This document shows, piece after piece, positions 21,594 to 41,764 of a DNA stretch of 64,000 bases. Position 1 is the first letter of the stretch. Each line of letters opens with the position of its first letter. Source of the stretch: Herbiconiux sp. L3-i23 (GTDB lineage Bacteria; Actinomycetota; Actinomycetes; Actinomycetales; Microbacteriaceae); contig NZ_AP025737.1 in assembly GCF_023734115.1 (NCBI RefSeq), positions 372,001 through 436,000 of the forward strand. Reading direction: 5' to 3'. The notes beneath the pieces were generated by a model, which saw nothing but the letters and a program-made list of their open reading frames with translations, was not told the DNA's origin and did not search any database. Position numbers and translations under genes: made by a program.

Positions 21594-22853
21594 TCAGGAC
21601 CGCTCAGGTCGTGTCAGCATGATGAGACCGATTGTGAGGAACATCAGGCCGCCGGCCGCGATCGGCAGCACCGAGCGCAACGTCAGGTCTTGGAGCGCGA
21701 GCGCACAGCCGACCGCTACAGCGAGTGAAGCAAACCAGGAGACTGACACCGACCGGTGACGGCCTGCAGCCAGGAGTGCGTCCGATGTCACCATGGCGGT
21801 CAGCAGGATTGCGAAGGCGCCTGCGACGAGTGCGACGGTGCTCGATGGCACGACGTATCGAGTGCCGAAGAAGACCTCGATCAACAATGCGCCGCCGATG
21901 AGCAGCGCGGCGCTCCAGAACATCGCAAGGAGTGCTGCCGCGGCGACTGTCCAGCGAGCAGCTACCACGTAGGCCCTGTGTCCGCGAGCCTGTCCGAGCG
22001 CGATCAGCCTCGGCAGCAGCGCCCCCTGCACGGACTGATACCCGAAGATGGGTACTCGCGCGAGCGAGACGAGCACGAGGAGGAGCCCCGGCGTTGCGCC
22101 GGCGCCGCCTTCGAAGACGAACGCAGCAATCGGTGCGAAGTTGAGCAGTACCTGCAGGACGATCGACGACGCGACCCGGTGGCGCACACTCGTCCCAAAC
22201 CCCTGCGCTGTGTCCTGGCTTCCGTCGGTCGAGTGTTCGGAGCCGGCAGGAGCGCGCCGAGCGCGAGTCAGTAGCGCCAGTCCGCACGCCGCCGAGAGAA
22301 CGGCCGCGACGGGGATAACCGCGACGAAGGCCACCAGCTCACCGCCGCCCATGACGGCGAAGACGGCCGACAACGCGATTCGGAGCACGGCTTCGATCGC
22401 AGTCACGGCCGCATACTCCGAAACCCGCAGCTGTGCGGCAAGTTCACCCTTAACCACGTACTGCAGGGCGTACGCGGCCGACGTCGCCGCCAGGGCCGAG
22501 CAGAGCACGACCGTGTTCGTACCGCGCGCTACCGCGATGGTAATGGCAAGGGCGAGAGCTGCGGAGACAACCGCCACCAGAACGACCGTGGGAAGCGCGG
22601 AGCGGACAGGAACGGCACGTGCGCCGGCGATCGCACCTCGTCGAGCAATCTCTTGCTCGATCGGCAGGAACAGGCCGAGGCCGATCAGTACGACGAGGGA
22701 CCAGAACCAGGAGAAATCCGAGTAATCGGCTTCCGTCAACGATCGCCCGGCGAGGATGACGACGACGTAGGTTCCGACACCGCCGAGGATGCCGGCAGCG
22801 ACCAGGTAGACGAAGGGACCTGCGACAGCACTTGGGAACTTCGCTGCGGTGAT
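21594..22853 (-). CDS. Oligosaccharide flippase (MOP/Wzx-like), probable ATC start
   Basis: About 419 aa, twelve or so hydrophobic segments, beginning AAKFPSAVAGPFVYLVAAGI and with GRSLTEADYSDFSWFW and LGLFLPIEQEIARRGA. These are typical of polysaccharide-biosynthesis flippases, which move lipid-linked repeat units across the membrane. Start: the only canonical upstream start is TTG 22910, without a good ribosome site and giving an Arg/Cys-rich tail unlike the family. In contrast ATC at 22853-22851 has AGGAGG six bases before it and begins just ahead of the first membrane helix. I therefore place the start at the ATC. Stop is five bases from the GT9 stop (convergent). Substrate unknown. Confidence 0.8.
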   Translation of the reverse strand: MTAAKFPSAVAGPFVYLVAAGILGGVGTYVVVILAGRSLTEADYSDFSWFWSLVVLIGLGLFLPIEQEIARRGAIAGARAVPVRSALPTVVLVAVVSAALALAITIAVARGTNTVVLCSALAATSAAYALQYVVKGELAAQLRVSEYAAVTAIEAVLRIALSAVFAVMGGGELVAFVAVIPVAAVLSAACGLALLTRARRAPAGSEHSTDGSQDTAQGFGTSVRHRVASSIVLQVLLNFAPIAAFVFEGGAGATPGLLLVLVSLARVPIFGYQSVQGALLPRLIALGQARGHRAYVVAARWTVAAAALLAMFWSAALLIGGALLIEVFFGTRYVVPSSTVALVAGAFAILLTAMVTSDALLAAGRHRSVSVSWFASLAVAVGCALALQDLTLRSVLPIAAGGLMFLTIGLIMLTRPERS

Positions 22854-22865
22854 GAGCGGCCTCCT
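22851..22865 (-). promoter_or_regulatory. Shine-Dalgarno AGGAGG with ATC start (flippase)
   Basis: On the minus strand AGGAGG (22865-22860), six bases CCGCTC, then ATC ACC GCA (ATC at 22853-22851). The spacing is ideal and no ATG, GTG or TTG occupies the start position. Confidence 0.55.
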
Positions 22866-22945: not shown

Positions 22946-25900
22946 TCACAGAGCGGCGCGTTCCCTCTCCCGAGCGACCAACTGGGGGAGAGGTCCGAAC
23001 GGGGAGCTGATGCCATCCACCACCACGGGAGAGGTCGAGACGTCGTATCCGACAGTCTGGACACCGTAGTCGAAGAGGACCAGACGTCCCCATACGGTTC
23101 CCACTTGCGGCATCGAGGAGACGGGAGTGCTGACCGACGCGAGACGCGACGGCCCGACCAGTGTTCCACCTCGGGACTCGACCCAGATGTTGTCCGGGCT
23201 GCCGTTGCCCCACGTCGTGGCATACCGCGGGGGTTCGATGATCCCGTTCGAAATCGCGAGAGGGTTCGCGCAGGGGAGGAGGAAGCTCGACTGCCACGCG
23301 ACGAGAGAAGGCGAGTCGCCGACGACGTCCCGCATGGTTTCGGCGTCGACCAGGCGGGGGGCGCTGAACCCGAACCAGCTTCCCGGGGTGGCGGCCGCGT
23401 CCACGCCGATGAGACGCAGCACCTTTCCCTTGCCAAGGTCCTCGGGACCAAGATCGGTGAGAACCGAGCGCCATCCCGGACGGTCCGCTGTGTCGGTGAT
23501 CCACGACTCTCGCTGGATCTCGACCTCGTTGTCGACGATCTGCCCGACCTGAGCGATGATTCCGTTCCCGGAAGTTGGGGCGGCCGAGCCGGCCACCAAC
23601 GCTGTGATCCTCTGCTCGTCGGTGATCTTGGGCGGCAAGGCGTACCACGCGGTCGCCGATGCACCGGCGGACGAGACGTCGCTGCTCGTCTCCCAAACCG
23701 AGCCCGCCCCGGGCGGTACCGGATCGGCTTCTCCGTCGAGGGGCGACGCGAAGGCTCCGTTGTCGAACAGGTCGATCGCCGGTCGCTGAGCGATAGGGAC
23801 CAAGCCGTCGGCATCCCGAGCGACAGTCACAGATTCCTCTTCGAGCGAAGCTCCTCGAACCGTGTCCCAGACCTCGATCGAGCGCTCAGGAATGCATGCG
23901 GCTCCTGACGGGTCTTCCAGGTTGGCGGCGCCGACGGAGTAGCTGCCGATCCCGCGCACGGCGGCGTTGCCGAAGGTCCCGTACAGGTAGCCGGTGGAGA
24001 GCACCCCGAAGAGCGCGACCACAGCGGTGGTGCTGTACAGAGCGGAGACGGACTTCCAGCGGCCCCGGCCGAGGACGAGTCGAGACCCGACGAAGGCTGC
24101 GATAAGGACCACGGCCCAGATGGCTTGAGAGGCTAACGGCGTGGAGCCGATCCTCGGCGGCTCGCCGCTGGCGTACATGAACTGGTTCCACGAATACGCC
24201 CACGTGTTGGGGCCTCGGAGCGAAACGATGATCGCAGGGACGAAGCTCGTGGCAACGATGATCGGAAGCCAAGCCGGGGGACGCTTGCCCTCCATGATCT
24301 GGCGGGCGACATGGGGACCGACGAACAGGACCGAGGCGATGAGCAATGGGCCGAAAGCCGCCAGGGCTCCGAAGTGATGAGTCCATTTGCTCGTCGTCAC
24401 CCACAGGATTATCAGACCGACGGCGAAGGACCACCCGGCGAGCGCGAGGGGCGAAAGGACGCGGGCCGGCTGCTTCCGGGATCGCGACGCGACCCAGAGG
24501 ACCACGAACCAGATGAGACACACGAGCGCGATGAGTACGACGGCGCGTTTGGCGTACGAGCCCATGGGGTCATTGGCAAGCAGGAAGGAATATCGGGTCC
24601 ACTCGTCCCTCCACCCAAGTGGTTGCTCGACCAGGGAGAAGTACGAGCTGTTGAGCCGCATGTCTCGAATGCTCGCGTCGGCGAAAGCGGCGAACAGGGC
24701 GACCGTCCCGACCGACATCACAGCGGTGGTGCGCAGCAGCGCGCGCCGCAGCGAGGTTCCGTTGCGACGCGCGATACTCCACAAGGCGGGGAGCCCGAGC
24801 AGAAGTGGAGCGAACGCCACTCCGCCCGTCGTGTGCGCAGCGAAACCAAGGGCGGCCGCCAGAGCACCCATCGCCGCGGGAAAGAGCGTCCGCGTCTCGA
24901 TCGCTCGATTGATCAAAGTCAATGCGGCGATCGACGCCAGGGCCCCGATCGCTTCAGGCCGGCTCCCAATGGAGTACGCGCTCCACCACGCGATGAAGAA
25001 CACCCCGAGGAGCAAGCGGGCGGCGAGTGTAAAGCGACGGGAGCGCTGCGGAAGCAGTCGATCGAGGAACGCCCTGCAGAGGAACCAGGCGGCCACCGCC
25101 GCGGCGAATGACGGGATGCGCAGCCACACAGGCGAATGGCCACCGACTTCCTGCCAAGCCCAGAGCGCCTGCCAGAACCACGTGAAAGGCGTGAAGGGGT
25201 GATTGAAGACCTGATAGTAGTTCCCGACGAAACCGGCATTCCCGAAATTCCACGCCATGTGGGCGTAATAGCCGTCGTCGTCTGTCATCGGTCCGATGAA
25301 TATCCATAACAGCAGCGCACCCACGACGACGGCATCAACCCCGGAGGGACGGAAGCGAGCGGCGTTGCGCGGCCGGGTCGCCGACGACGTTCGGTCGTCC
25401 CGCCACAGTCCGATCAGTGCGACGATGAGAGCCACCCACATCACGACCATGAGCGCGATCTTGAGCGGGGTGGGCGAGGTGTCGGAGTCGTTCACGACCA
25501 GCAGCGAGGCCGACAGGGAATCCGCTCCCACCTCGCTAGCAGCGGTGATGAGCGCGTCCACCTGCGGAGGCAGGACGTCCGGCCAGGAGAGCACCTTCTC
25601 TCCATCTGCGTACATCGTCATCCCGTCGACATCGGAATGCAGTTGCCATTCCTCGACGCCGTCGGTGCTGAGCGTCTCGCGCGATCCGCCGGAAGCCAGC
25701 GATAACGAGTCGGGACCGCTTTCGACCGTCAAGCCCAGGAGCGCCGCCTCGTCGTGATCGGGCCGCATCGTCGAGAACAGGACACCCCCCTGGGCCGCAT
25801 CGACTGCCGCGTCATCGAAGGTGAGATCGAGGGAGTGCGGGTTCTGGTTCGCGAGGAGCAGAGCGGTGGATCGGGTCGACTCCGGATCCGATGGCCAATT

Positions 25901-26074
25901 CACTACCGTCTTCTGCATAGTGACGGGCGCGACCGCGAGAGCTGCGCCCGAGAGGATCGCGATCAGCGCCGAGATTCCGGCGGTCACCGCCCCCGGGCGA
26001 GCGATCGCGTCGCTCCACCATGCCGGGAGCCCCCGGCGTCGGGTCTGCGATTGCGCTGCTTTCGCTGTGGCCAC
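22946..26074 (-). CDS. Emb-like arabinosyltransferase (GT53, GT-C fold)
   Basis: 1042 aa. N-terminal membrane segment (about 27-52), extracytoplasmic jelly-roll-like domain (about 55-200) and some ten further membrane segments (205-680) are followed by a large C-terminal extracytoplasmic domain. This is the layout of mycobacterial EmbA/B/C. The catalytic-loop motif IGPMTDDDGYY (Asp 265-267) corresponds to the conserved Asp motif of Emb proteins, followed by NYYQVFNHPFTPFTWFWQ. Emb enzymes add arabinofuranose from decaprenyl-phospho-arabinose to a galactan. A DPPR synthase candidate is 80 bp away. Start GTG 26074 has no Shine-Dalgarno, but TACTCT 8 nt upstream could be a -10 for a leaderless mRNA. 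Family firm; sugar inferred. Confidence 0.85.
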   Translation of the reverse strand: MATAKAAQSQTRRRGLPAWWSDAIARPGAVTAGISALIAILSGAALAVAPVTMQKTVVNWPSDPESTRSTALLLANQNPHSLDLTFDDAAVDAAQGGVLFSTMRPDHDEAALLGLTVESGPDSLSLASGGSRETLSTDGVEEWQLHSDVDGMTMYADGEKVLSWPDVLPPQVDALITAASEVGADSLSASLLVVNDSDTSPTPLKIALMVVMWVALIVALIGLWRDDRTSSATRPRNAARFRPSGVDAVVVGALLLWIFIGPMTDDDGYYAHMAWNFGNAGFVGNYYQVFNHPFTPFTWFWQALWAWQEVGGHSPVWLRIPSFAAAVAAWFLCRAFLDRLLPQRSRRFTLAARLLLGVFFIAWWSAYSIGSRPEAIGALASIAALTLINRAIETRTLFPAAMGALAAALGFAAHTTGGVAFAPLLLGLPALWSIARRNGTSLRRALLRTTAVMSVGTVALFAAFADASIRDMRLNSSYFSLVEQPLGWRDEWTRYSFLLANDPMGSYAKRAVVLIALVCLIWFVVLWVASRSRKQPARVLSPLALAGWSFAVGLIILWVTTSKWTHHFGALAAFGPLLIASVLFVGPHVARQIMEGKRPPAWLPIIVATSFVPAIIVSLRGPNTWAYSWNQFMYASGEPPRIGSTPLASQAIWAVVLIAAFVGSRLVLGRGRWKSVSALYSTTAVVALFGVLSTGYLYGTFGNAAVRGIGSYSVGAANLEDPSGAACIPERSIEVWDTVRGASLEEESVTVARDADGLVPIAQRPAIDLFDNGAFASPLDGEADPVPPGAGSVWETSSDVSSAGASATAWYALPPKITDEQRITALVAGSAAPTSGNGIIAQVGQIVDNEVEIQRESWITDTADRPGWRSVLTDLGPEDLGKGKVLRLIGVDAAATPGSWFGFSAPRLVDAETMRDVVGDSPSLVAWQSSFLLPCANPLAISNGIIEPPRYATTWGNGSPDNIWVESRGGTLVGPSRLASVSTPVSSMPQVGTVWGRLVLFDYGVQTVGYDVSTSPVVVDGISSPFGPLPQLVARERERAAL

Positions 26075-26154: not shown

Positions 26155-27069
26155 TCAGCTCGGAAGGTAGATGCCGACCGCGACGAGAACGAGCCAGGCA
26201 GCGGCGAAGGCTTGCAGCATCCGGTCGTGTATCGCGATGTCCTCCGGCGCCTCGGCATCACCACGATCGATGTGCTGCGTGTAGCGCAGCACAGCCAATA
26301 CGAACGGAGCCACCGAGATCGAGAGCCAGAGATCCACCGAGCCGGTCGCCGGATCGAACGCCCACAGGCTGTAACCCAGGACGAGGATTGTGGCGGCGGT
26401 GTGCCACATGAAGGCGAGGTAGGTTCGTGAGTAACCCTTGAGCGATCCGCGCACTTCGCCCTGTAGGTCGGGGTTCGCGAGGATCTCGGCATAGCGCTTA
26501 CCGGACACCATCAGCAGCGAGCCGAAGACTGCGACGAGCAGGAACCACTGACTGAGCTCGATGCCTGTCGCCGCGCCGCCCGCGATCATACGAAGCAGGA
26601 AGCCCGAGGACACGACGGCGATGTCGAGGATCGGCTGGTGTTTCAGCCAGAAGCAGTAGGCGATCTGAATGGTGTCGTACACGGCGACCACGACGAGTAG
26701 CTCCCACCCGCCCGCGAGGGCCAGACCGAGCCCGCCCAGAAGCAGTATGACCGCAGTCGCGATTGCGGCGGGGATGCGGACGATACCCGCGGCGATGGGG
26801 CGATTCCTCTTGCGCGGATGGGCGCGGTCCGCCTTCACGTCGAGCGTGTCGTTGATGAAGTAGACGGCCGACGCCGAAGCGCAGAACGCGAGAAAGGCGA
26901 GCAGCGAGTCGAGCAGGATCGATGCTTCGAGGAAGCGAGCAGAAGCTAGTGGAGCGGCGAATACGAGCACATTCTTCAGCCATTGCCGCGGTCGCGCCGT
27001 CCGGGCGATCCCGCCGATCGTGCTCGACACCCGGGGAACCTGGTCTGGGATCAGATCGGGATCGGTGAT
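26155..27069 (-). CDS. Decaprenyl-phosphate phosphoribosyltransferase (UbiA family), probable ATC start
   Basis: About 304 aa, about eight membrane helices. Matches Rv3806c-type enzymes: TARPRQWLKNVLVFAAPLAS, the Mg-binding FINDTLDVKADRAHP and RKRNRPIAAG, and a second Asp motif VYDTIQIAYCFWLKHQPILD. It makes decaprenyl-phosphoryl-phosphoribose, precursor of the arabinose donor DPA used by Emb enzymes. The start codon is unusual: GTG 27030 has no ribosome site. ATC at 27069-27067, 13 codons upstream and in frame, follows AAGGAG by seven bases. No dprE1/dprE2 epimerase genes are in the window. Confidence 0.87.
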   Translation of the reverse strand: MTDPDLIPDQVPRVSSTIGGIARTARPRQWLKNVLVFAAPLASARFLEASILLDSLLAFLAFCASASAVYFINDTLDVKADRAHPRKRNRPIAAGIVRIPAAIATAVILLLGGLGLALAGGWELLVVVAVYDTIQIAYCFWLKHQPILDIAVVSSGFLLRMIAGGAATGIELSQWFLLVAVFGSLLMVSGKRYAEILANPDLQGEVRGSLKGYSRTYLAFMWHTAATILVLGYSLWAFDPATGSVDLWLSISVAPFVLAVLRYTQHIDRGDAEAPEDIAIHDRMLQAFAAAWLVLVAVGIYLPS

Positions 27070-27082
27070 GACCGTGCTCCTT
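27067..27082 (-). promoter_or_regulatory. Shine-Dalgarno AAGGAG with ATC start (UbiA gene)
   Basis: Minus strand AAGGAG (27082-27077), CACGGTC, then ATC ACC GAT (ATC 27069-27067). The frame stays open into the conserved protein. The next canonical in-frame start, GTG 27030, lacks a ribosome site. Confidence 0.45.
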
Positions 27083-27157
27083 CGTGCGAATGTCGGCGTC
27101 GGGGCGGCCCTGCGAGAACCTCAAGCGTAGCCGCCGAGTGCCGCGAGCCTAGAGTAG

Positions 27158-27802
27158 GTGGTCGTGACCGCCTCCCGACTGCACCTCGTCCGCCACGGCG
27201 AAGTCGCCAACCCCGACGGCCTGCTGTACGGGCGGCTGCCCGGGTTCACCCTCTCCGCGAAGGGCGTGCAGACCGCGCGGGCCGCCGCCGATCACCTCGT
27301 CGCCGAGGGGCGCACCGTGACCCGGGTCATCTCGTCGCCGCTGGAGCGCGCGGTGCAGTCGGCCGAGCCGATCGCCGCCGCGTACAGGCTCGGGATTGAG
27401 ATTCGCGAGGGCCTGCTCGAGGCGACGAGTCTGCTCGAGGGCGGGCAGTACCGGATGGACCTCAGCATCCTCGGCAAGCCGGCCGCCTGGCGCTACCTCA
27501 TGAATCCGATGCGTCCAAGCTGGGGCGAACCGTTCAAGGACGTCGCCCGCCGCGTCCTCACCGAGATGGACAAGGTGCGCGAGAGCGTCGCGAGCGGCGA
27601 CGTCGTGATGGTCAGCCATCAGCTCCCAATCTGGATGGCGCACCGAGCGGTCACCGGTCAGCGGCTGTTCCACGACCCGCGCAAACGGCGGTGCACTCTG
27701 TCGAGCATCACCAGCTTTGAACTTGCCGGAGACCGTTGGCGCGAGGTCGAGTACGCCGAGCCCGCCCGCGGCCTCGGCCTCAGGGACGTCGGAGCGGTCT
27801 GA
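27158..27802 (+). CDS. Histidine phosphatase family protein (phosphoglycerate-mutase-like)
   Basis: 214 aa. The catalytic motif LHLVRHGEVANPDG is at residue 8-21 with the phospho-His in RHG, and the second catalytic His is in VVMVSHQLPIW. SSPLERAVQSAEPIA supplies the usual phosphate-binding Arg. Cytosolic phosphatase; members act on phosphosugars, alpha-ribazole phosphate or other small phosphates. Start GTG 27158 or GTG 27164; TAGAGT just before it could be a -10 of a leaderless mRNA. Divergent from the DPPR synthase gene. Substrate not predictable. Confidence 0.85.
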   Translation: MVVTASRLHLVRHGEVANPDGLLYGRLPGFTLSAKGVQTARAAADHLVAEGRTVTRVISSPLERAVQSAEPIAAAYRLGIEIREGLLEATSLLEGGQYRMDLSILGKPAAWRYLMNPMRPSWGEPFKDVARRVLTEMDKVRESVASGDVVMVSHQLPIWMAHRAVTGQRLFHDPRKRRCTLSSITSFELAGDRWREVEYAEPARGLGLRDVGAV

Positions 27803-27935
27803 GCCGCTTCTCGGTACGGCTTCAGTCCGGTCGTCGAGTAGAGACGGAGGAGCCTATCGAGTCCCTGGCGCAAGCGTGCGCTATGGGCCCAGGGTCGAGT
27901 AAGCGGAGTGCACCGAGACCATTCCGCCGCAATGG

Positions 27936-29093
27936 TCACAGGTCGGCGTGGAGTTGCCAGACGCGCTCCGCCGAGTCGCGCCAGCTGAATGCCCTTGCTC
28001 GATCGCGGGCTTCGATGCCGAGACGCTCGAGCAGGGCGGTGTCGCCGACGGTGTCCGCGATCGCCTCCGCGAGACGCTCCGCGTAGTCGTTCACGCCTGC
28101 TGCGCCTGCGTCGGAGCGGTCGACCTCGACGCCCGCGCCCGCGACGACCTCGAGCAGAGCCGGGGCATCCGAGTGCACCAGCGGGCGCCCGAAGTGCAGT
28201 GCCTCGACAGCGGTGAGGCCGAATCCCTCAAGCACGCTCGGCACCACGACGACGGTGGCGCGCGAGAACACGACCGCCAACTCCGCGTCGGGCAACGGGT
28301 CGAGATGGCGGATGCGGCCCTCCGGCGCACCCGACTCGAAGATCGCGCGCTCCACCGACTGTTCCCGCCAGGTCGACGGACCCACGTGCAGCAGCGGCAG
28401 GTCCGGGAACCGCGGCGAGGCGGCGGCTCGGAACAGCGACTCGATGCCCCGGCGCGGGTCAAGGGTGCCGACGGTCAGTGCGTACTCATCGGGCAGCTGC
28501 AGGCGCTCTGCGATCGCATCGGCCTCCGCGGCGGTAGGAACCGTGAGGCTCGATGAGACCGCGCCACCGATCACTCGGATGCGGTCGCCGAAGTCGATGA
28601 ACCGCGACAGGTCTTCCGCCACAGCATGGGTCGGCACCACGATCGCGTCGGCGTGCTTACGCGCCCGCTTCGCCATGCGGCGCACCCACGGCTGATTCGG
28701 GTCGTTCGAGTCGGGGAACAGCCACGGAGCGGCATCGTGGATGGTCACCACCGTCTGCTCGCCGGGGGTCTCGTGCCGGTCGTGCCTCGACAGGGGCGCG
28801 AGCAGCGTGGGGGAATGGATCATGCCGCCGAGCGGGCGGGTGGTGAAACCGCTCTGCCAGGCCAAGGCGAGCTCGCGGTGCCCGAGGCTCGTGTGGTGCA
28901 CCTGTTCGAGCTCGGGCAGACGCTCCGCAAGGGCGTCCCGCTGGGCGTCGTCGAGCGCCGACGCGATGCCCTCGACCTCGCAATCGGCGGGTGCGTTCGC
29001 TATCAGGGCTCGGGTCAGCTCGACGCTGTAGCGGGCGGTGCCGCGCGGGGAGCTCGTGAGGGCCGGGTCGACCACCACTCGTAAAGTGACCAC
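27936..29093 (-). CDS. Glycosyltransferase family 4 (GT-B)
   Basis: 385 aa. Typical GT4: N-terminal VVVDPALTSSPRGTARYSVE and a middle HDAAPWLFPDSNDPNQ. The C-terminal donor domain begins YALTVGTLDPRRGIESL and carries VVVPSVLEGFGLTAVEAL, the E-x7-E motif that holds the nucleotide sugar, plus HSDAPALLEV. Retaining transferase, probably mannosyl or similar, acting at the cytosolic membrane face. Start GTG 29093 with TAGGCT 5-10 nt before it; leaderless expression is possible. Lies 47 bp after the DUF6541 gene on the same strand and likely in one unit with it and the GtrA gene. Confidence 0.87.
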   Translation of the reverse strand: MVTLRVVVDPALTSSPRGTARYSVELTRALIANAPADCEVEGIASALDDAQRDALAERLPELEQVHHTSLGHRELALAWQSGFTTRPLGGMIHSPTLLAPLSRHDRHETPGEQTVVTIHDAAPWLFPDSNDPNQPWVRRMAKRARKHADAIVVPTHAVAEDLSRFIDFGDRIRVIGGAVSSSLTVPTAAEADAIAERLQLPDEYALTVGTLDPRRGIESLFRAAASPRFPDLPLLHVGPSTWREQSVERAIFESGAPEGRIRHLDPLPDAELAVVFSRATVVVVPSVLEGFGLTAVEALHFGRPLVHSDAPALLEVVAGAGVEVDRSDAGAAGVNDYAERLAEAIADTVGDTALLERLGIEARDRARAFSWRDSAERVWQLHADL

Positions 29094-29140
29094 CGCTCGA
29101 GCCTATCCATGCAGGCCTGAAGGCCCACGGAGCGACGTGC

Positions 29141-31144
29141 TCAGTCGCAGGCGGAGATGCGGAACAGCCGGCTGCCGCCCTCTTCGGCGACGAGGGTGAA
29201 TCCGGGCGCATCGGCGGCGCGCGAGATCGCCGCGAACTCCTCGGCCTGCGGATCCCCGTTCCAGAGGAGGCCATCGGAGGCGAAGAGATAGTGAGCGTCG
29301 AGTCGGTCGAGAGCGGCGCAGATCGCGGGGTCGAGGCTCACCCTGTCGACCCAGAGGCGCACGAAGTCGCGGTCCTCGTCCCACTCGCCGGTGAGGTGCG
29401 GGAACAGCGACTCTCGTCCTCCGATCGCCCAGGTGAGGGTCGACCCGTTCCACGGATCGCCGACGATCACGGATCCGGGGGGTGTCAGTTCGGCGAGGCG
29501 GCCGAACAGCGCGACCTCGTCGGTGTCGAGCAGTCGACCGTCCTTCTGCGCGGCGAGCTCGTAGTTGCGCGCGACCGCGTCGCGCATGCCGCCCAGGGTC
29601 GGACCGAACCAGCTCGCGACAGTGACGACGACGAGGACCACCGACGCGGCGATCAGACCGCCGCGGCGACCCCACCGCCGCACCCGGGCGAGCGATGCGG
29701 TGAGCGTTGCGGCAGCGGCGGCGAGGAGCGGCGGTGCGAGCACGCCGAGCAGCGCGAACAACCGGAACTTGTCCTTGTACCAGAAGCCGGTCGCGAGCTT
29801 CGCGAAGTCGGAGTTCGACCCGGCGGCGAGCGCGTAGAGCACGACCGTGAGCAGATACGCGACCGCGGCCCAGCGAAGCCCCTTCACCCGGAACGCGAGG
29901 ACGAGCGCCACGAGGATACTCGCCGCCAGCACTCCCGTCACGGGCAGGGTGCTCTCGTCCGGCCCTGACGGCGGCGCGAGCAGCAGCCCCTGCAGCAGCG
30001 ACTCCCCGAGACTCTGCCGAGCCGTCGCCGGTCCGCCGTTGAGGCGATCGGAGATGGGCCTGACGTCTGCGGCGAAGTAGCGGAGCACCGCCATGCTGCC
30101 GATCGCGGCGGCCGCTGCGGTCGCGACGACGACACCCGCCAGGATCACGATCGTGCGACGGCGCCGTGCCGCATCGCGCAGCTCGCCGCGAGCCCACGAC
30201 GCGAGGGCCGCGACGAGCAGCGGCAGCACCAGCAGGGCGAAGCTGATGAGGGAGCGCGGATGCGCGAAGACGCTCGCCGCCAACCAGACGGCGACGAGGA
30301 GCACAGGCAGGACGACTTCGCGGGAGGCGACCCGCCGGAGCACCAGCACGGCGAGAGCGAGCCCCGCGGGCAGCAGGGCGTAGGCGAGTCCGGTCGGGTA
30401 GAGGACGCCCCACTGCAGCAGCAGGTACGGCCCCGCCGCCGTCAGCGACCCGGCGAGGGCCCCGACCACCGGCACGACGACTCGGACGCGCTGAACGGGG
30501 ACCACGACGGCCGCGAACCACGCGCTGCCGAGCGCGAAGACGGCGCCGGTCACCGCGATCCAGACCGCGCTGGTGGCGAGCCCGATCGACGAACCGGTCA
30601 TCTGCACCACGAGCGCGACGATCGCGTGCCACGCGGCGGGATAGAACTCGATGCCGTCGCCCGGATGGGTCATCCGATACAGATGGAACGAGGACGCGTC
30701 GCCGGTCTGCAGCACGGAGGCGACGGCGTTCAGGTGGAAGACGCCGTCGTAGGTCTGGCTGACCAGATCGGGGGATGCGACCGAGCCGAAGGCGATCGCG
30801 GCGGTCGCGATCGTGGCGACAAGGGCTGCGCCGCTGACGAGCAGCAACGGCCCGCGCGCGAACCCCTCGCGGAGGGCGGGGGAGGCGGGCAGCCATCGCC
30901 CGGCGGCCCACGCGAGAGCCGCGACGACGACGGTGGCGACGGCCACGGTGGGGATTCCGAACGGCACGCCGATCGCGCCGGTGACCACAGCGGCAGCCCC
31001 GATGATCGCGAGGGAGACAGGGGCGGAGAGCGCGAGAAGAGCGAGTCCGCGCACGCGGGCGAGGAAGGCGGCGACGCCGCCGGGGATCACGAGGATGAGG
31101 ACGGCGACCAGCACAGCCGGCACCACGGAGATCCACTCGCTCAC
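29141..31144 (-). CDS. DUF6541-like polytopic membrane protein (putative GT-C)
   Basis: 667 aa. Hydrophobic from residue 5 on, about 14 segments, and a soluble C-terminal part of about 150 aa. An acidic-plus-aromatic loop after the third segment (SQTYDGVFHLNAVASVL) and WWRAT-like distribution of charged loops resemble actinobacterial DUF6541 proteins, thought to be GT-C type transferases using polyprenyl-phosphate sugars. GTG start overlaps the stop of the GtrA gene (GTGA), so the two are translationally coupled: a flippase-like GtrA plus a GT-C enzyme is a sensible functional pair. Substrate unknown. Confidence 0.78.
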   Translation of the reverse strand: MSEWISVVPAVLVAVLILVIPGGVAAFLARVRGLALLALSAPVSLAIIGAAAVVTGAIGVPFGIPTVAVATVVVAALAWAAGRWLPASPALREGFARGPLLLVSGAALVATIATAAIAFGSVASPDLVSQTYDGVFHLNAVASVLQTGDASSFHLYRMTHPGDGIEFYPAAWHAIVALVVQMTGSSIGLATSAVWIAVTGAVFALGSAWFAAVVVPVQRVRVVVPVVGALAGSLTAAGPYLLLQWGVLYPTGLAYALLPAGLALAVLVLRRVASREVVLPVLLVAVWLAASVFAHPRSLISFALLVLPLLVAALASWARGELRDAARRRRTIVILAGVVVATAAAAAIGSMAVLRYFAADVRPISDRLNGGPATARQSLGESLLQGLLLAPPSGPDESTLPVTGVLAASILVALVLAFRVKGLRWAAVAYLLTVVLYALAAGSNSDFAKLATGFWYKDKFRLFALLGVLAPPLLAAAAATLTASLARVRRWGRRGGLIAASVVLVVVTVASWFGPTLGGMRDAVARNYELAAQKDGRLLDTDEVALFGRLAELTPPGSVIVGDPWNGSTLTWAIGGRESLFPHLTGEWDEDRDFVRLWVDRVSLDPAICAALDRLDAHYLFASDGLLWNGDPQAEEFAAISRAADAPGFTLVAEEGGSRLFRISACD

Positions 31145-31578
31145 GACGCCCCCTCCTGTGCGGCGGCGGCCGCGGCGACCGGCTGCTCGCGGAAGACCAC
31201 GGAGTGGTAGAGCACGAACCGGAGCACGACCACGATGCCGATGCTCACGACGTTGACGGCGTTGACGACGAGCGGCCCGTCACCGAGCAGCGCGGTGCCG
31301 AGCGCGACGATGCCCGCACCGAGTGCTGTGCAGACGACGTTCACGGCGATGAAGAGTGCCGCCTCCCGTCCTCGATGGCCGCGAGGCCTGCCCCGGAACG
31401 CCCACTCGCGGTTGCCGACGTAGGCGCTGATCAGCGCGACAAGCGACGACACGACCTTCGCGGCGACAGGAGACCAGCCGAGACCGACGAGGAAGAGGTT
31501 GAACAGCGACAGCTCGATCGCCGTGCTGATCGCCCCCACGAGCAGGAAACGAGCACCGGAATGTAGCAGCGTCCGCAT
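31141..31578 (-). CDS. GtrA family membrane protein, second copy
   Basis: 145 aa from ATG 31578, with GGGGAG just upstream. Four hydrophobic segments; GtrA motifs GARFLLVGAISTAIELSLFN and AYVGNREWAFRG. Presumed flippase for polyprenyl-phosphate-linked sugar. Its stop overlaps the start of the DUF6541 gene. It is divergent from the Dpm-like GT2 gene (31651), which would make the lipid-linked sugar, so the three genes form a plausible synthesis-flip-transfer module. Confidence 0.87.
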   Translation of the reverse strand: MRTLLHSGARFLLVGAISTAIELSLFNLFLVGLGWSPVAAKVVSSLVALISAYVGNREWAFRGRPRGHRGREAALFIAVNVVCTALGAGIVALGTALLGDGPLVVNAVNVVSIGIVVVLRFVLYHSVVFREQPVAAAAAAQEGAS

Positions 31579-31650
31579 GTCTCCCCGCCGCTCGATCGCC
31601 TCCCTTACGCTACTACCAGTCGCCCACCCGTGGGCCCTGGGAGAGGTTGC

Positions 31651-32418
31651 ATGGACATCGCGGTCGTCATGCCGGCGCATAACGAGGCCGAGGGCATCGG
31701 GGAGTTCCTCGCCGAGATCGAGGGCTCGCTGGCGGGCCGGTTCGAGCATCTCTACATCGTCGTCGACGACTGCTCCTCCGACGAGACGGCGGACCGCGCG
31801 CGCGCCGCGGCCGCGGCCGGCGGCTTCTCCGTCGACGTCATCCCCAACCCCCGCAACCTCGGGCACGGGCCCAGCGCCCTGCGGGCCTACCGAGCCGGGC
31901 TGACGACCGCGGCCTCCGTCGTCGTGCACGTCGACGGCGACGGGCAGTTCCGCGGCGAAGACGTGCTCGCGGTGGTGCAGGCGCTCGACGGCAACGACGT
32001 CGTCCACGGCATCCGACGCGGCCGCACCGACGCGTGGTACCGGCGAGTGCTCACCGGAACGCTCGGCGCGGTGATCCGCAACCTCGCGGGCGGGCAGGTG
32101 TTCGACGCCAACACGCCCCTGCGCGCCTACCGACGCGAGGCGCTCCGCTCCGTCTGCGACGAGGTGCCGGACGATGCGCTCGTCCCGCACGTGCATTTCT
32201 CGGTGCTCGAACGCCGTCTCGGCCTCCGAGTCGTCGGCGTCGACGTCGACAGCCTCCCGCGACGGGGGAGCACCAGCACGGGCACCATGTGGGGTCGCGC
32301 GCGATTCCAGCACCTGCTGCCGCCCGCCCGGCTGGTGAGCTTCACCTCGCGCGCCGCACGGGAACTCTTGACCCTCAACCAGAAGGGCCGGCGCGCGGCC
32401 GTCGAGACCCTTCCGTGA
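31651..32418 (+). CDS. Glycosyltransferase family 2 (polyprenyl-phosphate sugar transferase-like)
   Basis: 255 aa from ATG 31651, with GGGAGAGG upstream. GT-A motifs: DIAVVMPAHNEAEGIG at the N-terminus, VVDDCSSDETAD, the metal site VHVDGDGQF and GIRRGRTDAWYRR. No membrane helices at the C-terminus. The layout resembles Dpm/ArnC-like enzymes that charge polyprenyl phosphate with a sugar. The next gene, a GT-C protein, begins within its stop (GTGA). Confidence 0.83.
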   Translation: MDIAVVMPAHNEAEGIGEFLAEIEGSLAGRFEHLYIVVDDCSSDETADRARAAAAAGGFSVDVIPNPRNLGHGPSALRAYRAGLTTAASVVVHVDGDGQFRGEDVLAVVQALDGNDVVHGIRRGRTDAWYRRVLTGTLGAVIRNLAGGQVFDANTPLRAYRREALRSVCDEVPDDALVPHVHFSVLERRLGLRVVGVDVDSLPRRGSTSTGTMWGRARFQHLLPPARLVSFTSRAARELLTLNQKGRRAAVETLP

Positions 32419-33929
32419 CGACCGCCTCCGCAACGGCCGCTTCCACGCCGGCTCCCGCTGCGCGCCGCCATGCCGTTCCCGCGATCGCCGCCGCCATCGC
32501 GGTCGGGGCCGCGTTCACCGCCCTCGTCGTCGCCGGTCTGCTGCGCACACGGCTCTGGGAGGACGAGGCGTACAACCTCTCCGTGCCGCTGAACCTCGCG
32601 CTCGGCCGCGGCTACCTCAGCGCGGGCATCCTGAACGACGGCGTTCCCGCCCTGTTCGATCCCAAGGTCTCGACGGGACCCGCGGTGCTCGCGCCCATCG
32701 CACCGCTGATCGCGGCCGGAGTGGACCCGGTCACCGCCGGACGACTGGTCGGCGCCGCGTTCGCCCTCGCCCTCGCGGCGGGGCTTCTCCTCTTCGGCAG
32801 ACGCATCGCCGGAATGTGGGGCGGCATCGCCGCCGTCTCGGCGCTCGTCCTCTTCACCGCCGCCGACTCGGCATCCCCGATCCAGGGACTCACCGACGTG
32901 TTGGGCGAGCTTCCCGCCGCCGCGTTCCTCGTCTTCGCCGTGCTGACGCTCCGACGCCACCCGCTCGCAGCGGGTGCGCTCATCGGGCTCGCGTTCGAGA
33001 GCAAGAATCTCAGCGTGTTGGCCATCCCCGCCCTCGTCGTCGGCGCCGTGCTCTCCGGTGACGCAACGCGGCAGCGGATCCGACATGTGCTGCTCCTCGC
33101 CGCCGGTGCCGCCATCCCGGTCGCGGTATTCGAGATGGTGCGCCTCGTCGCCCTCGGCCCTGGCGGCTACCTGACCTCGGTGCGCGCGCTCGGCCGCTTC
33201 CTGCTCTCCGGGGGGCAGAGCGGGTTCAGCTCGCCGTGGTGGGAGAAGGCGGGCGCAGCGCTCGCCGCATGGTCGCTGCCCGCCTGGGTGCCCGCTATCC
33301 TGCTCGCCGCCGCGATGGCGGTCCTCGTCGTCGCGCGCCGGTCGCCGCTACTCGGACGCGCGCTCGGGCGGGTGCGGATCGAACTGATCGTTGTCGCATC
33401 GCTCTTCGTGCTGTGGACCGTATGGTGGTGGGTCTCGTCGAGCACCCCGGTGTGGGTACGTCACCCGGCGCCGGCGCTCGTCCTCGCGGGAGCCGTCGTG
33501 GCCGCTCTGCTCGTGCTCGCCGTGCGCGCCCTCGCGGCCGGGCGCCGTGCGTCGCGGATCGCATCGTGGAGCGTCGCCGTCGCGCTCTGCCTCGCCGTCG
33601 CGGGAGGCGCCGTCGTGCGGCTGGCCGACGTGTACGACCCACGCCGCGAGAGCCTCGCCCAGCAGCGTGCCACCGCCGAGGCCATCGCCCTCGACGACGG
33701 AACCGACCGTGTCCACGGCTCGTGGGGCCCGCCGGTGAGCATCGCCTTCCTGCAGGGCAAACGTCTCGTGCTTCCCGGCGAGGGTGGTGGGCAGGACGGC
33801 GTGTGGACGTTCCCGCCCGGAATCGACGACCTCGTCGCGGGCGGCGACGCAGTCGGCGTCGAATCGTGCGCCGACCCGGTCGAAAACCGGGGATACCGCT
33901 CGTGCCTTCTTCGCGGCGTCTCGGGCTGA
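32415..33929 (+). CDS. GT39-like polytopic glycosyltransferase (GT-C)
   Basis: 504 aa from GTG 32415 (GTGA with the GT2 stop). About ten to eleven membrane segments. The first loop contains TRLWEDEAYNLSVPLNL; the acidic pair E-D-E after the first helix is the catalytic signature of PMT/ArnT-type GT-C enzymes. A short extracytoplasmic C-terminus follows. It should use the polyprenyl-phosphate sugar made by the preceding enzyme on the outer side of the membrane. Acceptor unknown. High GC; ends 80 bp before the next GT2 gene. Confidence 0.82.
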   Translation: MTTASATAASTPAPAARRHAVPAIAAAIAVGAAFTALVVAGLLRTRLWEDEAYNLSVPLNLALGRGYLSAGILNDGVPALFDPKVSTGPAVLAPIAPLIAAGVDPVTAGRLVGAAFALALAAGLLLFGRRIAGMWGGIAAVSALVLFTAADSASPIQGLTDVLGELPAAAFLVFAVLTLRRHPLAAGALIGLAFESKNLSVLAIPALVVGAVLSGDATRQRIRHVLLLAAGAAIPVAVFEMVRLVALGPGGYLTSVRALGRFLLSGGQSGFSSPWWEKAGAALAAWSLPAWVPAILLAAAMAVLVVARRSPLLGRALGRVRIELIVVASLFVLWTVWWWVSSSTPVWVRHPAPALVLAGAVVAALLVLAVRALAAGRRASRIASWSVAVALCLAVAGGAVVRLADVYDPRRESLAQQRATAEAIALDDGTDRVHGSWGPPVSIAFLQGKRLVLPGEGGGQDGVWTFPPGIDDLVAGGDAVGVESCADPVENRGYRSCLLRGVSG

Positions 33930-34035
33930 CTTCCGAGCGAACGCCGCGAGCTCCCGGCCCGCCGGTGCGGGCGACGCCCGTGGGATGGCCTCCCGGTAGA
34001 ATCGCACGGTCATCGACCGCTTCGCGCACGACCCC

Positions 34036-34050
34036 GGAGGATCCGCCATC
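34036..34050 (+). promoter_or_regulatory. Shine-Dalgarno GGAGGA with ATC start (GT2 gene)
   Basis: GGAGGA (34036-34041), six bases TCCGCC, then ATC TCG AAG ATC. Reading upstream in frame from the ATC to the stop codon at 33997 no ATG, GTG or TTG occurs, and the next canonical start downstream (GTG 34153) would delete the conserved core. Confidence 0.6.
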
Positions 34051-34989
34051 TCGAAGATCGTCGCCGTCGTCGTCGCCTACAACCGGCGCGAACTGCTCAC
34101 CGAGACGCTGAAGGCGCTGCTCGGACAGAGCCGTCCGCTCGACCGGATCGTCGTGGTCGACAACGCCTCCGACGACGGATCGGGCGAACTCGCCCGCGAG
34201 ATCGCCCCGCAGGCCGACGTCGTCTCCCTCTCCCGCAACACCGGCGGTGCCGGGGGCTTCGCCGTCGGCATCGAGCGCGCCGTCTCCGCGCACGGCGCCG
34301 ATTACGTGTGGGTCATGGACGACGACACCGTCCCCACCGCCACGGCCGCCGAGGAGCTCGAGGCCATGGCGAAGCGCCTTCCGGGCGCCCGGCTGCTCGC
34401 CTCACGCGTGGTGTGGACCGACGGACGCGACCACCCCATGAACACGCCGCGCCCGTGGCGGCTGCGATCCAAGCGCGTGGACGAGGCGCTCCGCGGCGTC
34501 GACGGCTTCCCGTTCCGCTCGGCCTCGTTCGTCTCGCTCTTCATGCCCGCCGCGCTCGTGCGCACGCTCGGGCTGCCGATCGCCGACTACTTCCTCTGGA
34601 ACGACGACTTCGAATACTCGACCCGTCTCGTGCGGGGCGGCGTCGGCGTGTACTGCGCCCGCAGCGTCGTCGAGCACCGCACCAAGGCGTTCGGGGACAC
34701 CGCCGTCGACCCCGGCGAACGCTTCTACTTCGAGGTGCGCAACAAGATCTGGATGTTCCGCCATTCGCGTTCGCTGTCGCTTCCCGAGAAGGGGCTGTAC
34801 GGCGGCGCGACGCTGCTGCGTTGGGTCCGCACCTACCTGAACTCGCCGGGGAGAGCAGTGCTCCGATCGGCGTTCACGCGCGGGGTGCGCGACGGGTTCC
34901 AGGCGCCGCCGCGGTCGAACGCGGAGGTGCTCGACGGCTTCGGCGAGGTGTCCGACGCCATCGCACGCTTCGAGGCGAGTCGTGGCTGA
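34048..34989 (+). CDS. Glycosyltransferase family 2 (GlfT1-like?), probable ATC start
   Basis: About 313 aa. The N-terminal strand KIVAVVVAYNRRELL, followed by VVDNASDDGSGELA, LSRNTGGAGGFAVG and the metal motif VWVMDDDTVP, is the standard GT2 core. NTGGAGGF is frequent in rhamnosyl- and galactofuranosyltransferases. A FLWNDDFEYSTRL motif supplies the acid/base region. The start must lie before VVVAYNR, yet the only possible codon there with a ribosome site is ATC 34048. Because glf and a GlfT2-like gene follow in the same run of overlapping genes, a GlfT1-like role (first Galf residues) is plausible but unproven. Confidence 0.82.
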   Translation: MSKIVAVVVAYNRRELLTETLKALLGQSRPLDRIVVVDNASDDGSGELAREIAPQADVVSLSRNTGGAGGFAVGIERAVSAHGADYVWVMDDDTVPTATAAEELEAMAKRLPGARLLASRVVWTDGRDHPMNTPRPWRLRSKRVDEALRGVDGFPFRSASFVSLFMPAALVRTLGLPIADYFLWNDDFEYSTRLVRGGVGVYCARSVVEHRTKAFGDTAVDPGERFYFEVRNKIWMFRHSRSLSLPEKGLYGGATLLRWVRTYLNSPGRAVLRSAFTRGVRDGFQAPPRSNAEVLDGFGEVSDAIARFEASRG

Positions 34990-35845
34990 CACGGCACCGT
35001 TCTCACTCCTGCTCCCGGTCTACCGCGGCGACGATGCCCGATTCCTGCGCCGCGCCTTCACCAGCTCGGTGCACGACCAGACCCTGCGCCCCGACGAGGT
35101 CATCGTGGTCCGCGACGGGCCCGTCCCCGACGAGGTCGAAGCGGTGCTGCGCGATCTCGAGACCGAGTCGCCGGTGCCCACCACCGTGCTGCGTCTGCCC
35201 GATAACATCGGCCTCGCCCATGCGCTGCGCAAGGGACTCGCCGCCTGCACGCACGAGATCGTCGCCCGCATGGACGCCGACGACATTTCCCTGCCCGAAC
35301 GTTTCGAGCGTCAACTCGCCGCGATGACCGCCGACGGCCTCGACATGGTCGGCGCCGGCATGTTCGAGTTCCTCGAGGACAACGGCAAGGTGCTCGGTAG
35401 GCGCACCCCGCCGTCGGGGCTCGAACGCATCCGCAGCTACTCGCGCTTCCACGACCCCTTCAACCACCCGACCGTCGTGTACCGCAAGCAGGCCGTGCAC
35501 AAGGCGGGCGGGTACCAGGAGCTCGGCCTCATGGAGGACTACTGGCTCTTCGTGCGGATGATCCACTCCGGCGCCATCGTCGACAACGTGCCCGCGCCGC
35601 TGCTGATGTACCGGGTCGGGGCCGGGGCGTACCGCCGCCGCGGCGGCTACAAGCAGTTGGTCGCCGAGCTGCGCCTCCAGCGCGAGTTCCGGCGGATCCA
35701 CTTCACCACCCGCCGGCAGATGCTGCGCAACATCGGCATCCGGGCCAGCTACCGTCTCGTCCCCGTGGGCATCCGCCAGGTGATCTACCGGGCTTTCATC
35801 GCCAATCCAGGTGCCCGCAAGACCCGCTCAGCACGGGTCGAATAG
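34982..35845 (+). CDS. Glycosyltransferase family 2
   Basis: 287 aa, GTG start inside the end of the previous gene (8-bp overlap). GT-A motifs: SLLLPVYRGDDARFL, the Asp in VVRDGPVPDE, IVARMDADDISLPERF as metal site and LMEDYWLFVRMI as the late acidic motif. No membrane segments. It resembles amylovoran/colanic-acid-type transferases (AmsE-like). Lies directly upstream of glf and probably in the same transcript. Sugar unknown. Confidence 0.87.
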   Translation: MADTAPFSLLLPVYRGDDARFLRRAFTSSVHDQTLRPDEVIVVRDGPVPDEVEAVLRDLETESPVPTTVLRLPDNIGLAHALRKGLAACTHEIVARMDADDISLPERFERQLAAMTADGLDMVGAGMFEFLEDNGKVLGRRTPPSGLERIRSYSRFHDPFNHPTVVYRKQAVHKAGGYQELGLMEDYWLFVRMIHSGAIVDNVPAPLLMYRVGAGAYRRRGGYKQLVAELRLQREFRRIHFTTRRQMLRNIGIRASYRLVPVGIRQVIYRAFIANPGARKTRSARVE

Positions 35846-35881
35846 GGTTTAGCGTCGTCCCGGAGTCTTCCGGGGCAGTGA

Positions 35882-39051
<3,170 letters not shown>

Positions 39052-39668: not shown

Positions 39669-40250
39669 TTACTCGGTGGAATACCCGAGTTCGTCCTCGA
39701 TGGACTGCATCAAGGAGTGGATGACCACGAGTTCGGACTCCTGAATGCGGTCGGCCCATCGGCCGGTGCCAAGCGCGATCGCAACGTCGGCGACGGACGC
39801 GATCGCATTGTCGCTCGTGCCGGAGGATGACACCACCGTTCCGCCCGCAGCCTTCATCGCCTCTGCTGCGCGCAGCACGTTGGCCGACTTACCGCTCGTG
39901 CTGAGAGCGAGGAGCACATCACCCGGACGAGCCAGAGCCTCGATGAACTTCGAGAATACGAACTCGTAGCCGTAGTCGTTCGCCACGCACGTGAGATGTG
40001 AGGGATCGGAGATGGCGATCGCCCGAAGTGGGGGGCGGTCGCCTCGGAAACGGCCGGTCAGCTCCTCTGCGAAATGCTGCGCATTCGTCATCGAACCGCC
40101 GTTACCGCACGCGAACAGTGTTCCCCCCTGTCGTAGGGAGGTGGCCATCACCGTCGCCGCTCGCTCGAACGCCTCGATGAACTCGGCATCCTCGGCGAGG
40201 GCGGCCATCCGGCGTGCGTTCTCAGCGAGGTTCTCTTTGATGACACTCAT
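39669..40250 (-). CDS. gmhA: Sedoheptulose-7-phosphate isomerase
   Basis: 193 aa from ATG 40250. SIS-domain isomerase making D-glycero-D-manno-heptose 7-phosphate, the first heptose step. LFACGNGGSMTNAQHFAEEL (His 59, Glu 62/63) and RFRGDRPPLRAIAISD match GmhA closely. STSGKSANVLRA is the phosphate loop, and the C-terminal RIQESELVVIHSLMQ supplies the catalytic His region. Lies 29 bp downstream of hldE on the same strand, so one operon hldE-gmhA is likely. Confidence 0.92.
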   Translation of the reverse strand: MSVIKENLAENARRMAALAEDAEFIEAFERAATVMATSLRQGGTLFACGNGGSMTNAQHFAEELTGRFRGDRPPLRAIAISDPSHLTCVANDYGYEFVFSKFIEALARPGDVLLALSTSGKSANVLRAAEAMKAAGGTVVSSSGTSDNAIASVADVAIALGTGRWADRIQESELVVIHSLMQSIEDELGYSTE

Positions 40251-40279
40251 GCTGCTGATCCTTCCATCGCTATTCGACC

Positions 40280-41764
40280 TCAGCCGCGTCGGACCTGCTG
40301 GCCCTGCGACAGGCGTGTTGTGGATACGCCGTCGAGCAGAGTGACAATGTGGACGCGCCCGCCCCACGCTTTCGCGTCGTCGCCGCCCACCACCTGGTCG
40401 GGGCGGTAGTCGGATCCCTTCACGATCACGTCGGGCTTGATCGCCTGGATCAACTCTCGAGGGGTGTCCTGCTCGAAAACGGTGACGAAGTCGACGTAGC
40501 GGACAGCCTCGAGTACAGTCATCCGGTCGCTCTGAGGTTGGAGCGGCCGCGCTGGACCCTTGAGCCGGGCCGTCGAGGCGTCCGAGTTGACTCCGACAAC
40601 GAGAACATCGCCCAATGCTCGAGCCTCCTTGAGCAACGCGACGTGGCCCGCATGCAAGAGGTCGAAGACACCGTTCGCGAAGACGACACGCTTGCCCGCC
40701 TGCTTCTCCACGGCAACCAAGCGGGCGAGCTCGATCCAGTCCTCGATGGTGCTCGGGCGTTGCTCGGGTGACAGCTCGACGAGTAGTTCGTTCAGCAGAT
40801 CTGCGCTGGTCACGATCGCAGTACCAGGGCGTCCGCAGGCGATCCCCGCTGCCATATTGCCCACCTGCACCGCTTGAAGGTTCGAGAGGCCGCTCGCGAG
40901 CGCGGCGGCGATGCCGGCGATCATCGAGTCGCCCGCGCCTGAGACGTCAGCGACCAGCCGTGCGCGGGTCGGGATGCGCGTGCGGTCGTCGCCCTCGATG
41001 ACCTCGACCCCGACGGCGGAGAGCGAGACTGCCAGCGCGCCGATCCCGTCGACCTGCAGCCGCTGCGCAATTCGATCGAGGGTCGCCTCATCAGGGCTCT
41101 CTGCATGCAACCCAGCCATCTGCAACGCTTCGGCGAAGTTCGGCTTGACGATGGAGGCACCCCGGTACTTGCGGATGTCGGAGGATTTCGGGTCGACGAC
41201 CACCGGGATCGAATGGCGCGAGGCGGAGGCGATGATCCTCGCCACCAGGTCGTCGGTCAACATCCCCTTGGCGTAGTCGGAGATGACGACAGCAGTCGAC
41301 TCGGGTCGGCTCAGCAGGGCCTCATCCAGCGCCGCCATCACGGAGTCCGCTCCCGCAGAGTCGAGCTCGACCGTGTCTTCACGGTCGACTCGGACGATCT
41401 GCTGCTGCCCCGCCACCACTCTCAGCTTCTCGATCGTCGGGGCGGCTCCCCGCTGCACGGATTTTGCGGTAACACCGGCATCGTCGAGAAGTCGCTTCAA
41501 CTCGGCTCCCGCCTCGTCGTCCGCCCAGGACGCGATGAGAGTCGTGGTCGCCCCGAGAGCGGCGACGTTGATCGCCGCATTGGCGGCGCCTCCGGCGACG
41601 CTGCGGTCCTCCCGTACCTGCATCACGGGAATCGGAGCTTCGGGTGAGATCCGATTCACCGTCCCATTCACGTACCGGTCGAGCATCGCGTCCCCGATGA
41701 CCACGACGTGTGCCGTGTCGAAGCCGAGGATGTGTTGAGGCGAGATCGGCGAGATATCAGGCAT
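40280..41764 (-). CDS. hldE: Bifunctional heptose 7-phosphate kinase / heptose 1-phosphate adenylyltransferase
   Basis: 494 aa. N-terminal ribokinase-like domain (residues about 15-330): VVIGDAMLDRYVNG, SVAGGAANAAIN, and the catalytic GAGDS (276-280). C-terminal cytidylyltransferase-like domain (about 355-490): FANGVFDLLHAGHVALL with HAGH at 371-374, then VNSDASTARLKG. Produces ADP-D-glycero-beta-D-manno-heptose together with GmhA and GmhB. This full-length fusion is standard in Gram-negative LPS biosynthesis and less usual in a Gram-positive. No hldD epimerase is in the window. Start ATG 41764 has only a weak ribosome site. Confidence 0.93.
   Translation of the reverse strand: MPDISPISPQHILGFDTAHVVVIGDAMLDRYVNGTVNRISPEAPIPVMQVREDRSVAGGAANAAINVAALGATTTLIASWADDEAGAELKRLLDDAGVTAKSVQRGAAPTIEKLRVVAGQQQIVRVDREDTVELDSAGADSVMAALDEALLSRPESTAVVISDYAKGMLTDDLVARIIASASRHSIPVVVDPKSSDIRKYRGASIVKPNFAEALQMAGLHAESPDEATLDRIAQRLQVDGIGALAVSLSAVGVEVIEGDDRTRIPTRARLVADVSGAGDSMIAGIAAALASGLSNLQAVQVGNMAAGIACGRPGTAIVTSADLLNELLVELSPEQRPSTIEDWIELARLVAVEKQAGKRVVFANGVFDLLHAGHVALLKEARALGDVLVVGVNSDASTARLKGPARPLQPQSDRMTVLEAVRYVDFVTVFEQDTPRELIQAIKPDVIVKGSDYRPDQVVGGDDAKAWGGRVHIVTLLDGVSTTRLSQGQQVRRG

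Follow-up and report, generated by a model that had tools for sequence, protein, structure and literature searches.

Genes and candidate start sites at the locus

As seen in Table 1, three genes of Herbiconiux sp. L3-i23 show an ATC codon behind a Shine-Dalgarno (SD) sequence within the window, which here means the whole stretch of DNA analysed, 64,000 nucleotides of contig NZ_AP025737.1. The preliminary description placed such sites before a GT2 glycosyltransferase gene, ubiA and a membrane protein gene, and all three are present within 11.2 kb (22853 to 34048). The identity of UbiA (PF01040) is secured by an equivalog model, and from gene order and strand ubiA is probably the first gene of a ubiA-emb-membrane protein operon. 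The GT2 frame is open over 313 codons; its product scores 96 bits against the NCBIfam equivalog model for GlfT1 (NF050113), below the cut-off of 330, and is termed GlfT1-like only. The membrane protein has no match in Pfam or NCBIfam, and the name flippase is a label of the preliminary description.

Table 1. Positions of the genes, start codons and initiation signals discussed in the text (window coordinates, except for guaA)
Feature	Position	Strand	Remarks
Membrane protein gene (earlier labelled flippase), probable AUC start	21594..22853	-	419-codon open frame
ATC, probable start codon of the membrane gene	22851..22853	-	Coding score of the upstream 15 codons -7.1, of the next 35 codons +11.8
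AGGAGG, SD of the membrane gene	22860..22865	-	
EmbC-like arabinosyltransferase gene, GTG start	22946..26074	-	Downstream of ubiA; PF04602, PF14896, PF17689
ubiA, decaprenyl-phosphate phosphoribosyltransferase, predicted AUC start	26155..27069	-	NF008978, 392.5 bits against a cut-off of 207; PDB 8j8j, E 4e-78
ATC, predicted start codon of ubiA	27067..27069	-	Aligned AT[CT] in the clade
AAGGAG, SD of ubiA	27077..27082	-	
TAGAAT	33997..34002	+	In-frame stop TAG (33997-33999) of the GT2 frame and -10-like hexamer; putative promoter role
GTC	34009..34011	+	In the GT2 frame, 6 nt past TAGAAT; rival leaderless start
GGAGGA	34036..34041	+	SD-like; doubles as two in-frame Gly codons
ATC	34048..34050	+	Start codon put forward in the preliminary description; 6-nt spacer after GGAGGA
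GT2 glycosyltransferase gene, GlfT1-like	34048..34989	+	PF00535, 74.5 bits
GTG	34153..34155	+	Earliest canonical in-frame codon, inside the domain; a start here loses the first 35 residues including the VVVAYNR strand
guaA (GMP synthase), ATC/ATT behind GGAGG	G000:C1:2729571, G001:C1:783937, L158:14185	-	Start overlaps the preceding gene's stop

In this Microbacteriaceae genome, the region from 21594 to 39051 holds a Mycobacterium-like arabinan/galactan set (Emb-like, ubiA, UDP-galactopyranose mutase, GlfT2-like). Several other features of the window are also worth recording. Genes for a SIS-domain protein, a PfkB and cytidylyltransferase fusion and a GT9 protein are consecutive at 39669-43081, with lower third-position GC; they resemble an ADP-heptose-type set, here in an actinobacterium. 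An LGFP-repeat protein is encoded at 44639-47344. At 57873-61065, opposite strands carry two long frames that share about 1.1 kb, and the third-position GC of both exceeds 0.9.

A conserved, probable AUC/AUU start in ubiA

Homologues of ubiA were sought in 60 genomes of relatives, 398 genomes drawn from the family, 18 of the genus of G195 and 396 drawn from the order, at cut-offs from 1e-40 to 1e-85. The resulting set comprises 41 distinct loci including that of the window, and all were examined. Ten loci, whose alignment extends to residue 1, form a single clade (support 99/98), in which the aligned start is ATC (8) or ATT (2) in every member and ATG, GTG or TTG in none. The members are the present genome and its congeners G001 and G003, five sequences of genus g56, G071 (g62) and G164 (g93), representing four genera. 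Because the five g56 sequences are nearly identical, the clade counts about six independent lineages rather than ten. An SD match of 5-6 nt lies 4-6 nt from the start in 10/10 members. Canonical codons occur close to the start in each of the remaining 31 homologues. On the 41-row tree, the start label requires one change, and 0/500 shuffles were as low. A sequencing error behind the ATC of ubiA is excluded by the ten genomes.

In seven of the ten clade members, no canonical codon is found upstream as far as the stop or 45 codons, and likewise in 7/10 the earliest downstream canonical codon is at residue 31 or later, beyond the RQW motif. Counter-evidence is found in G164, where in-frame GTG and ATG codons lie 9 and 6 codons upstream of the ATT, and in G003 and G195, where an ATG occurs further upstream. 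As a caveat, the present ubiA also has an in-frame GTG at residue 14. The conserved Ile might alternatively be an internal residue of a longer protein, as the frame is open for at least 48 codons upstream in 7/10 members and Ile codons would likewise read ATC or ATT. We regard this as very improbable, since in-frame stops lie 18 (present genome), 14 (G001) and 8 (G071) codons upstream with no canonical codon between; in these three species the internal position is refuted unless another non-canonical start codon is used. Also against it, no upstream peptide common to the clade members can be seen, the SD is correctly spaced in 10/10, and a -10-like TACGCT or TACGGT lies 28-54 nt upstream in the present genome, G071 and the five g56 sequences.

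The leader of ubiA reads AAGGAG-CACGGTC-ATC-ACC-GAT-CCC and that of infC in the same genome AAGGAG-CAGCGC-ATC-AGC-GAT-CCC. Several ubiA leaders resemble the infC leader, the initiation regions in several species consisting of AAGGAGCA, a few bases and AUC-AGC/ACC-GA-CC. After SD-led canonical starts, AGC and ACC are the most frequent second codons (9/79 and 7/79), and the full A[CG]C-GAN-CCN occurs in 0/79. Convergence towards a shared N-terminus may explain the likeness. When folded as RNA, the ten ubiA leaders gave no common structure by eye. In these same clusters, the glf start codon does alternate between GTG and ATG.

In sum, ubiA shares both sequence features of infC-type start genes, a non-canonical start without a canonical alternative and conservation of that start across species with a strong SD. 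Among the three genes for which AUC initiation had been proposed, ubiA is the strong case, and on these comparisons initiation at AUC/AUU is well supported. For the membrane gene the proposal is plausible, and for the GT2 gene it is less certain.

The membrane gene and the GT2 gene

Homologues of the membrane protein were found in 11 other genomes of the 60 searched, with 24-44% identity, and none aligned to residue 1. Five of them (G031, G053, G003, G043, G011; six loci viewed) reach the N-terminal part and have canonical codons, with residue 1 unaligned. Two in-frame TTG codons, at 22910 and 22886, lie upstream of the ATC and are a caveat. The AUC start of this gene is plausible from its sequence context, and its conservation is not apparent among these homologues.

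The description given earlier of the GT2 start region is accurate in its particulars: GGAGGA stands six bases before ATC 34048, no ATG, GTG or TTG occurs in frame between the stop at 33997 and GTG 34153, and the VVVAYNRR strand is encoded between the ATC and that GTG. The family was compared over 85 loci (87 listed, with duplicates L012 and L027 removed). From codon -40 to codon +4 relative to the aligned start, a canonical codon is absent in the window alone (1/85) and present in the other 84; a conserved non-canonical start was consequently not found in this set. Among the nine listed orthologues from congeners and from g56/g62, none has an SD-led ATC or ATT at the GT2 start, and canonical codons are nearby.

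The GT2 gene is the least certain of the three AUC candidates. It had been presented as the best of them, a ranking that does not hold, as the upstream codons look coding and the leaderless GTC 34009 competes with ATC 34048. A start at AUC 34048 is a tentative assignment, to which we give somewhat less than an even chance. The gene could instead be leaderless from GUC 34009, corresponding to the leaderless GTG of relatives with its last base changed, so that GGA-GGA at 34036 would be coding and not an SD; this reading falls just short of an even chance. It is favoured by the 15 codons from 34003 to 34047, which score +4.49, near the coding median and higher than all 68 control stretches, taken upstream of canonical starts with an SD (mean -5.1, sd 4.2), whereas the corresponding stretches of ubiA and the membrane gene score -4.8 and -7.1. 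Moreover, TANNNT lies 5-9 nt ahead of the canonical start in 24/85 loci (19 GTG, 3 ATG, 2 TTG), a raw count uncorrected for chance matches, and the N-terminal extensions in these loci are at most 15 residues in 22 and 25 residues in two. However, the coding signal covers 15 codons only, a loose SD (at least 4 bases) precedes the canonical codon in 33/85 loci, and the closest orthologue, in G003, has a GTG start without a TANNNT-type hexamer. Leaderless initiation is generally considered to favour AUG, which also speaks against GUC 34009.

Sequencing or assembly error, or recent decay, might also have removed a canonical start from the GT2 and membrane genes. In its favour, this genome is the only one of the 85 loci to lack a canonical codon at the GT2 start, and the membrane gene is without a close orthologue for comparison. 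Nevertheless, it is unlikely, as the two genes keep open frames of 313 and 419 codons and the source contig spans 3.14 Mb of a 3.18-Mb genome of completeness 99.99. Given that the upstream codons score as coding and that TAGAAT-N6-GTC is present, AUC 34048 is no more probable than a leaderless GUC or the loss of a GTG through mutation or error.

Apparent scarcity of AUC/AUU starts in the genome

The preliminary description suggested that AUC initiation is regular in this organism, at least in glycan genes. Start codons were surveyed in 464 kb of the organism's own DNA, made up of 20 stretches of 20 kb (some placed for tRNA genes and infC) and the window, with 394 called genes. An SD match of at least 5 bases precedes 52/341 ATG and 35/435 GTG codons near coding starts and 14/447 ATC codons (3.1%), the last being like many other codons and no commoner than background. 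SD plus ATC alone is thus uninformative, and therefore conservation was used as the test.

The pattern AGGAG-N4-9-ATC-A[CG]C has 49 matches in the genome, and the reversed pattern used as control has 16. Scoring covered every one of the 49, in 30 loci and 19 further stretches, and five passed. Reading upheld infC, ubiA and the membrane gene and led to rejection of the other two: L292 is a histidine kinase gene with a later ATG, and L314 a short frame with upstream ATGs. With ATT in place of ATC, the same pattern gave 3 matches in the genome and no gene start among them.

A strict scan, with score limits of 15 in one scan and 8 in another, was also applied. In 13 genomes, over 654 kb surrounding the glycan clusters, it found 4 ATC/ATT sites, all of them ubiA (G001, G003, G323, G071). 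It passed over ubiA of the present genome, G195, G380 and G164, as well as the remaining two sites of the window. In 800 kb of other DNA of the organism (400 kb sampled over the contig and a further 400 kb), the sole convincing case was infC, on a stretch chosen for that gene. Three strict matches were rejected: in the 2.66-2.86 Mb stretch, 98753, presumably ribosomal protein L13, has a GTG upstream, and 168105 was likewise dismissed by eye; L135:15123 has a likely GTG start 18 codons in. A match at 3003805 is weak. The number of strict AT[CT] sites does not rise above that of control codons (in the clusters, for instance, 4 compared with 3-8), so an SD followed by ATC in unconserved genes may be chance.

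Near the clusters, orthologues of glf, emb and GT4 have canonical start codons in nearly all cases. In the G001 cluster (L206-L209), the emb, glfT1 and hisphos homologues match in pieces, as if frameshifted; these may be assembly errors. In 24 of 280 well-scoring sampled genes, the earliest canonical codon lies at least 8 codons inside the score boundary. One frame with coding signal, L142:7782-8336 on the plus strand, has its earliest canonical codon 86 codons inside the score boundary and CTG ACC CAT TCG near the likely start.

That AUC is a regular start codon of the organism or of its glycan genes is hardly credible, despite three SD-ATC sites in 11.2 kb. The SD stands before ATC at background level in 464 kb, the glycan clusters yielded ubiA alone, and the 800 kb of other DNA gave infC only, beside some genes that lack a clear start. 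Neither the claim of regular usage nor its narrower form for glycan genes is supported. With approximately a third of the genome scanned, the results suggest that AUC/AUU starts are confined to a handful of genes and follow no glycan-gene rule.

infC, the tRNA set and guaA

As a positive control, infC starts with AT[CT] in 30/30 loci examined (ATC 27, ATT 3; 59 genomes with a match). Unusual residues in IF3, a possibility raised with the original proposal, are not seen by identity, the first 170 residues being 86-99% identical to those of 29 relatives. All 45 tRNA genes from the Rfam search were typed and include one Ile-GAT and three Met-CAT, one of the latter presumably with initiator features. 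The set is ordinary, so no special tRNA is seen, and a mutant initiator tRNA reading AUC was considered and dropped, with no sign of one among the 45.

A further case, outside the window, is guaA, which first surfaced in the strict scan of 180 kb of the congener G005. Its SD and start read GGAGG-CATCCC-ATC-AGT in the present genome, GGAGG-TCCGCC-ATT-AGC in G001 and GGAGG-CCCGTC-ATT-AGC in G005, and the conserved non-canonical start with SD occurs in all three same-genus genomes in which guaA was located. A synteny-based search did not find the gene in the stretches taken from G195 and G323. Counted from the upstream stop, the earliest in-frame canonical codon is a GTG at residue 50 in G005, 40 in G001 and 32 in the present genome. 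This GTG lies inside the DFGAQYAQL core in G005 and G001. A canonical start is less strictly excluded in the present genome, where GTG 32 stands just ahead of LVVDFG; it has no visible SD there, and the preceding SGT[DE]ARP is nearly common to the three species (SGTDARP in the present genome and G005). Since the guaA start and the preceding gene's stop overlap (ATTAG in two species, by sight), translational coupling may help initiation.

Proposed mechanism and comparison with known systems

These results point to a real but small class of genes with AUC/AUU starts, to which we assign a probability of about 0.82. It would include ubiA in the ten known clade members, its initiation complex held in place by the SD and destabilised by IF3, and the GT2 start would be either AUC 34048 or the leaderless GUC 34009. 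The initiator tRNA (anticodon CAU) would pair with the first two bases of AUC or AUU and mispair at the third. A strong SD would keep the 30S complex in place, offsetting this weak pairing, and IF3, judging from infC and sigR, would destabilise the complex. Translation would consequently be low and track free IF3. As ubiA and guaA encode enzymes and not IF3, there would be no feedback loop as in infC.

In an in vitro survey, IF3 disfavours weak third-base pairs (PMC10158994). The infC gene for IF3 itself starts with AUU, AUC or AUA and is autoregulated by IF3 (PMC5472188, PMC13009471). Both infC and ubiA have a conserved AT[CT] start with a strong SD, and with ubiA of the present genome, G003 and g56, infC has codons two to four, A[CG]C-GA-CC, in common. 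An actinobacterial parallel is sigR of Streptomyces, whose GTC start was shown by experiment to be repressed by IF3 (Feeney 2017, PMC5472188). It resembles ubiA in that a strong SD precedes a conserved non-canonical start which annotation misplaces, and differs in using GUC rather than AUC, in encoding a Streptomyces sigma factor and in having experimentally shown regulation. The earlier remark that standard gene callers overlook such starts is in line with the account of infC and sigR given by Feeney et al. In Staphylococcus aureus, ribosome profiling and reporters identified non-canonical starts of cvfC1 (AUU) and ccpN (AUA) (PMC13009471). These are conserved and accompanied by an SD as in ubiA, extended in S. 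aureus with expression below that from AUG, although the phylum and the genes are different. Borrelia pncA has an AUU start and a truncated annotation (PMC13398362); like ubiA and guaA it encodes a metabolic enzyme, but it is a spirochaete gene.

The kind of start is therefore already known, and ubiA and guaA appear, from their aligned sequences, to be new members. No earlier report of AUC/AUU starts in either gene was found among titles and abstract openings, a search that mostly left out subscription papers and so is not proof of absence. It can be further speculated that Microbacteriaceae possess a small IF3 regulon with AUC/AUU starts (infC, ubiA, guaA and a few others), and that free IF3 would thereby set the GMP supply and the use of polyprenyl phosphate in wall arabinan synthesis alongside ribosome capacity; we consider a regulon of this scope improbable at present.

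Conserved non-canonical starts have been documented in few bacterial genes besides infC. SD plus ATC in a single genome is insufficient evidence for such a start, whereas comparison of start codons among orthologues can reveal non-canonical starts where gene callers cannot. The AUC/AUU start of ubiA across four genera, together with that of guaA in three species, provides evolutionary evidence that such starts are retained, perhaps for dosage or regulation.
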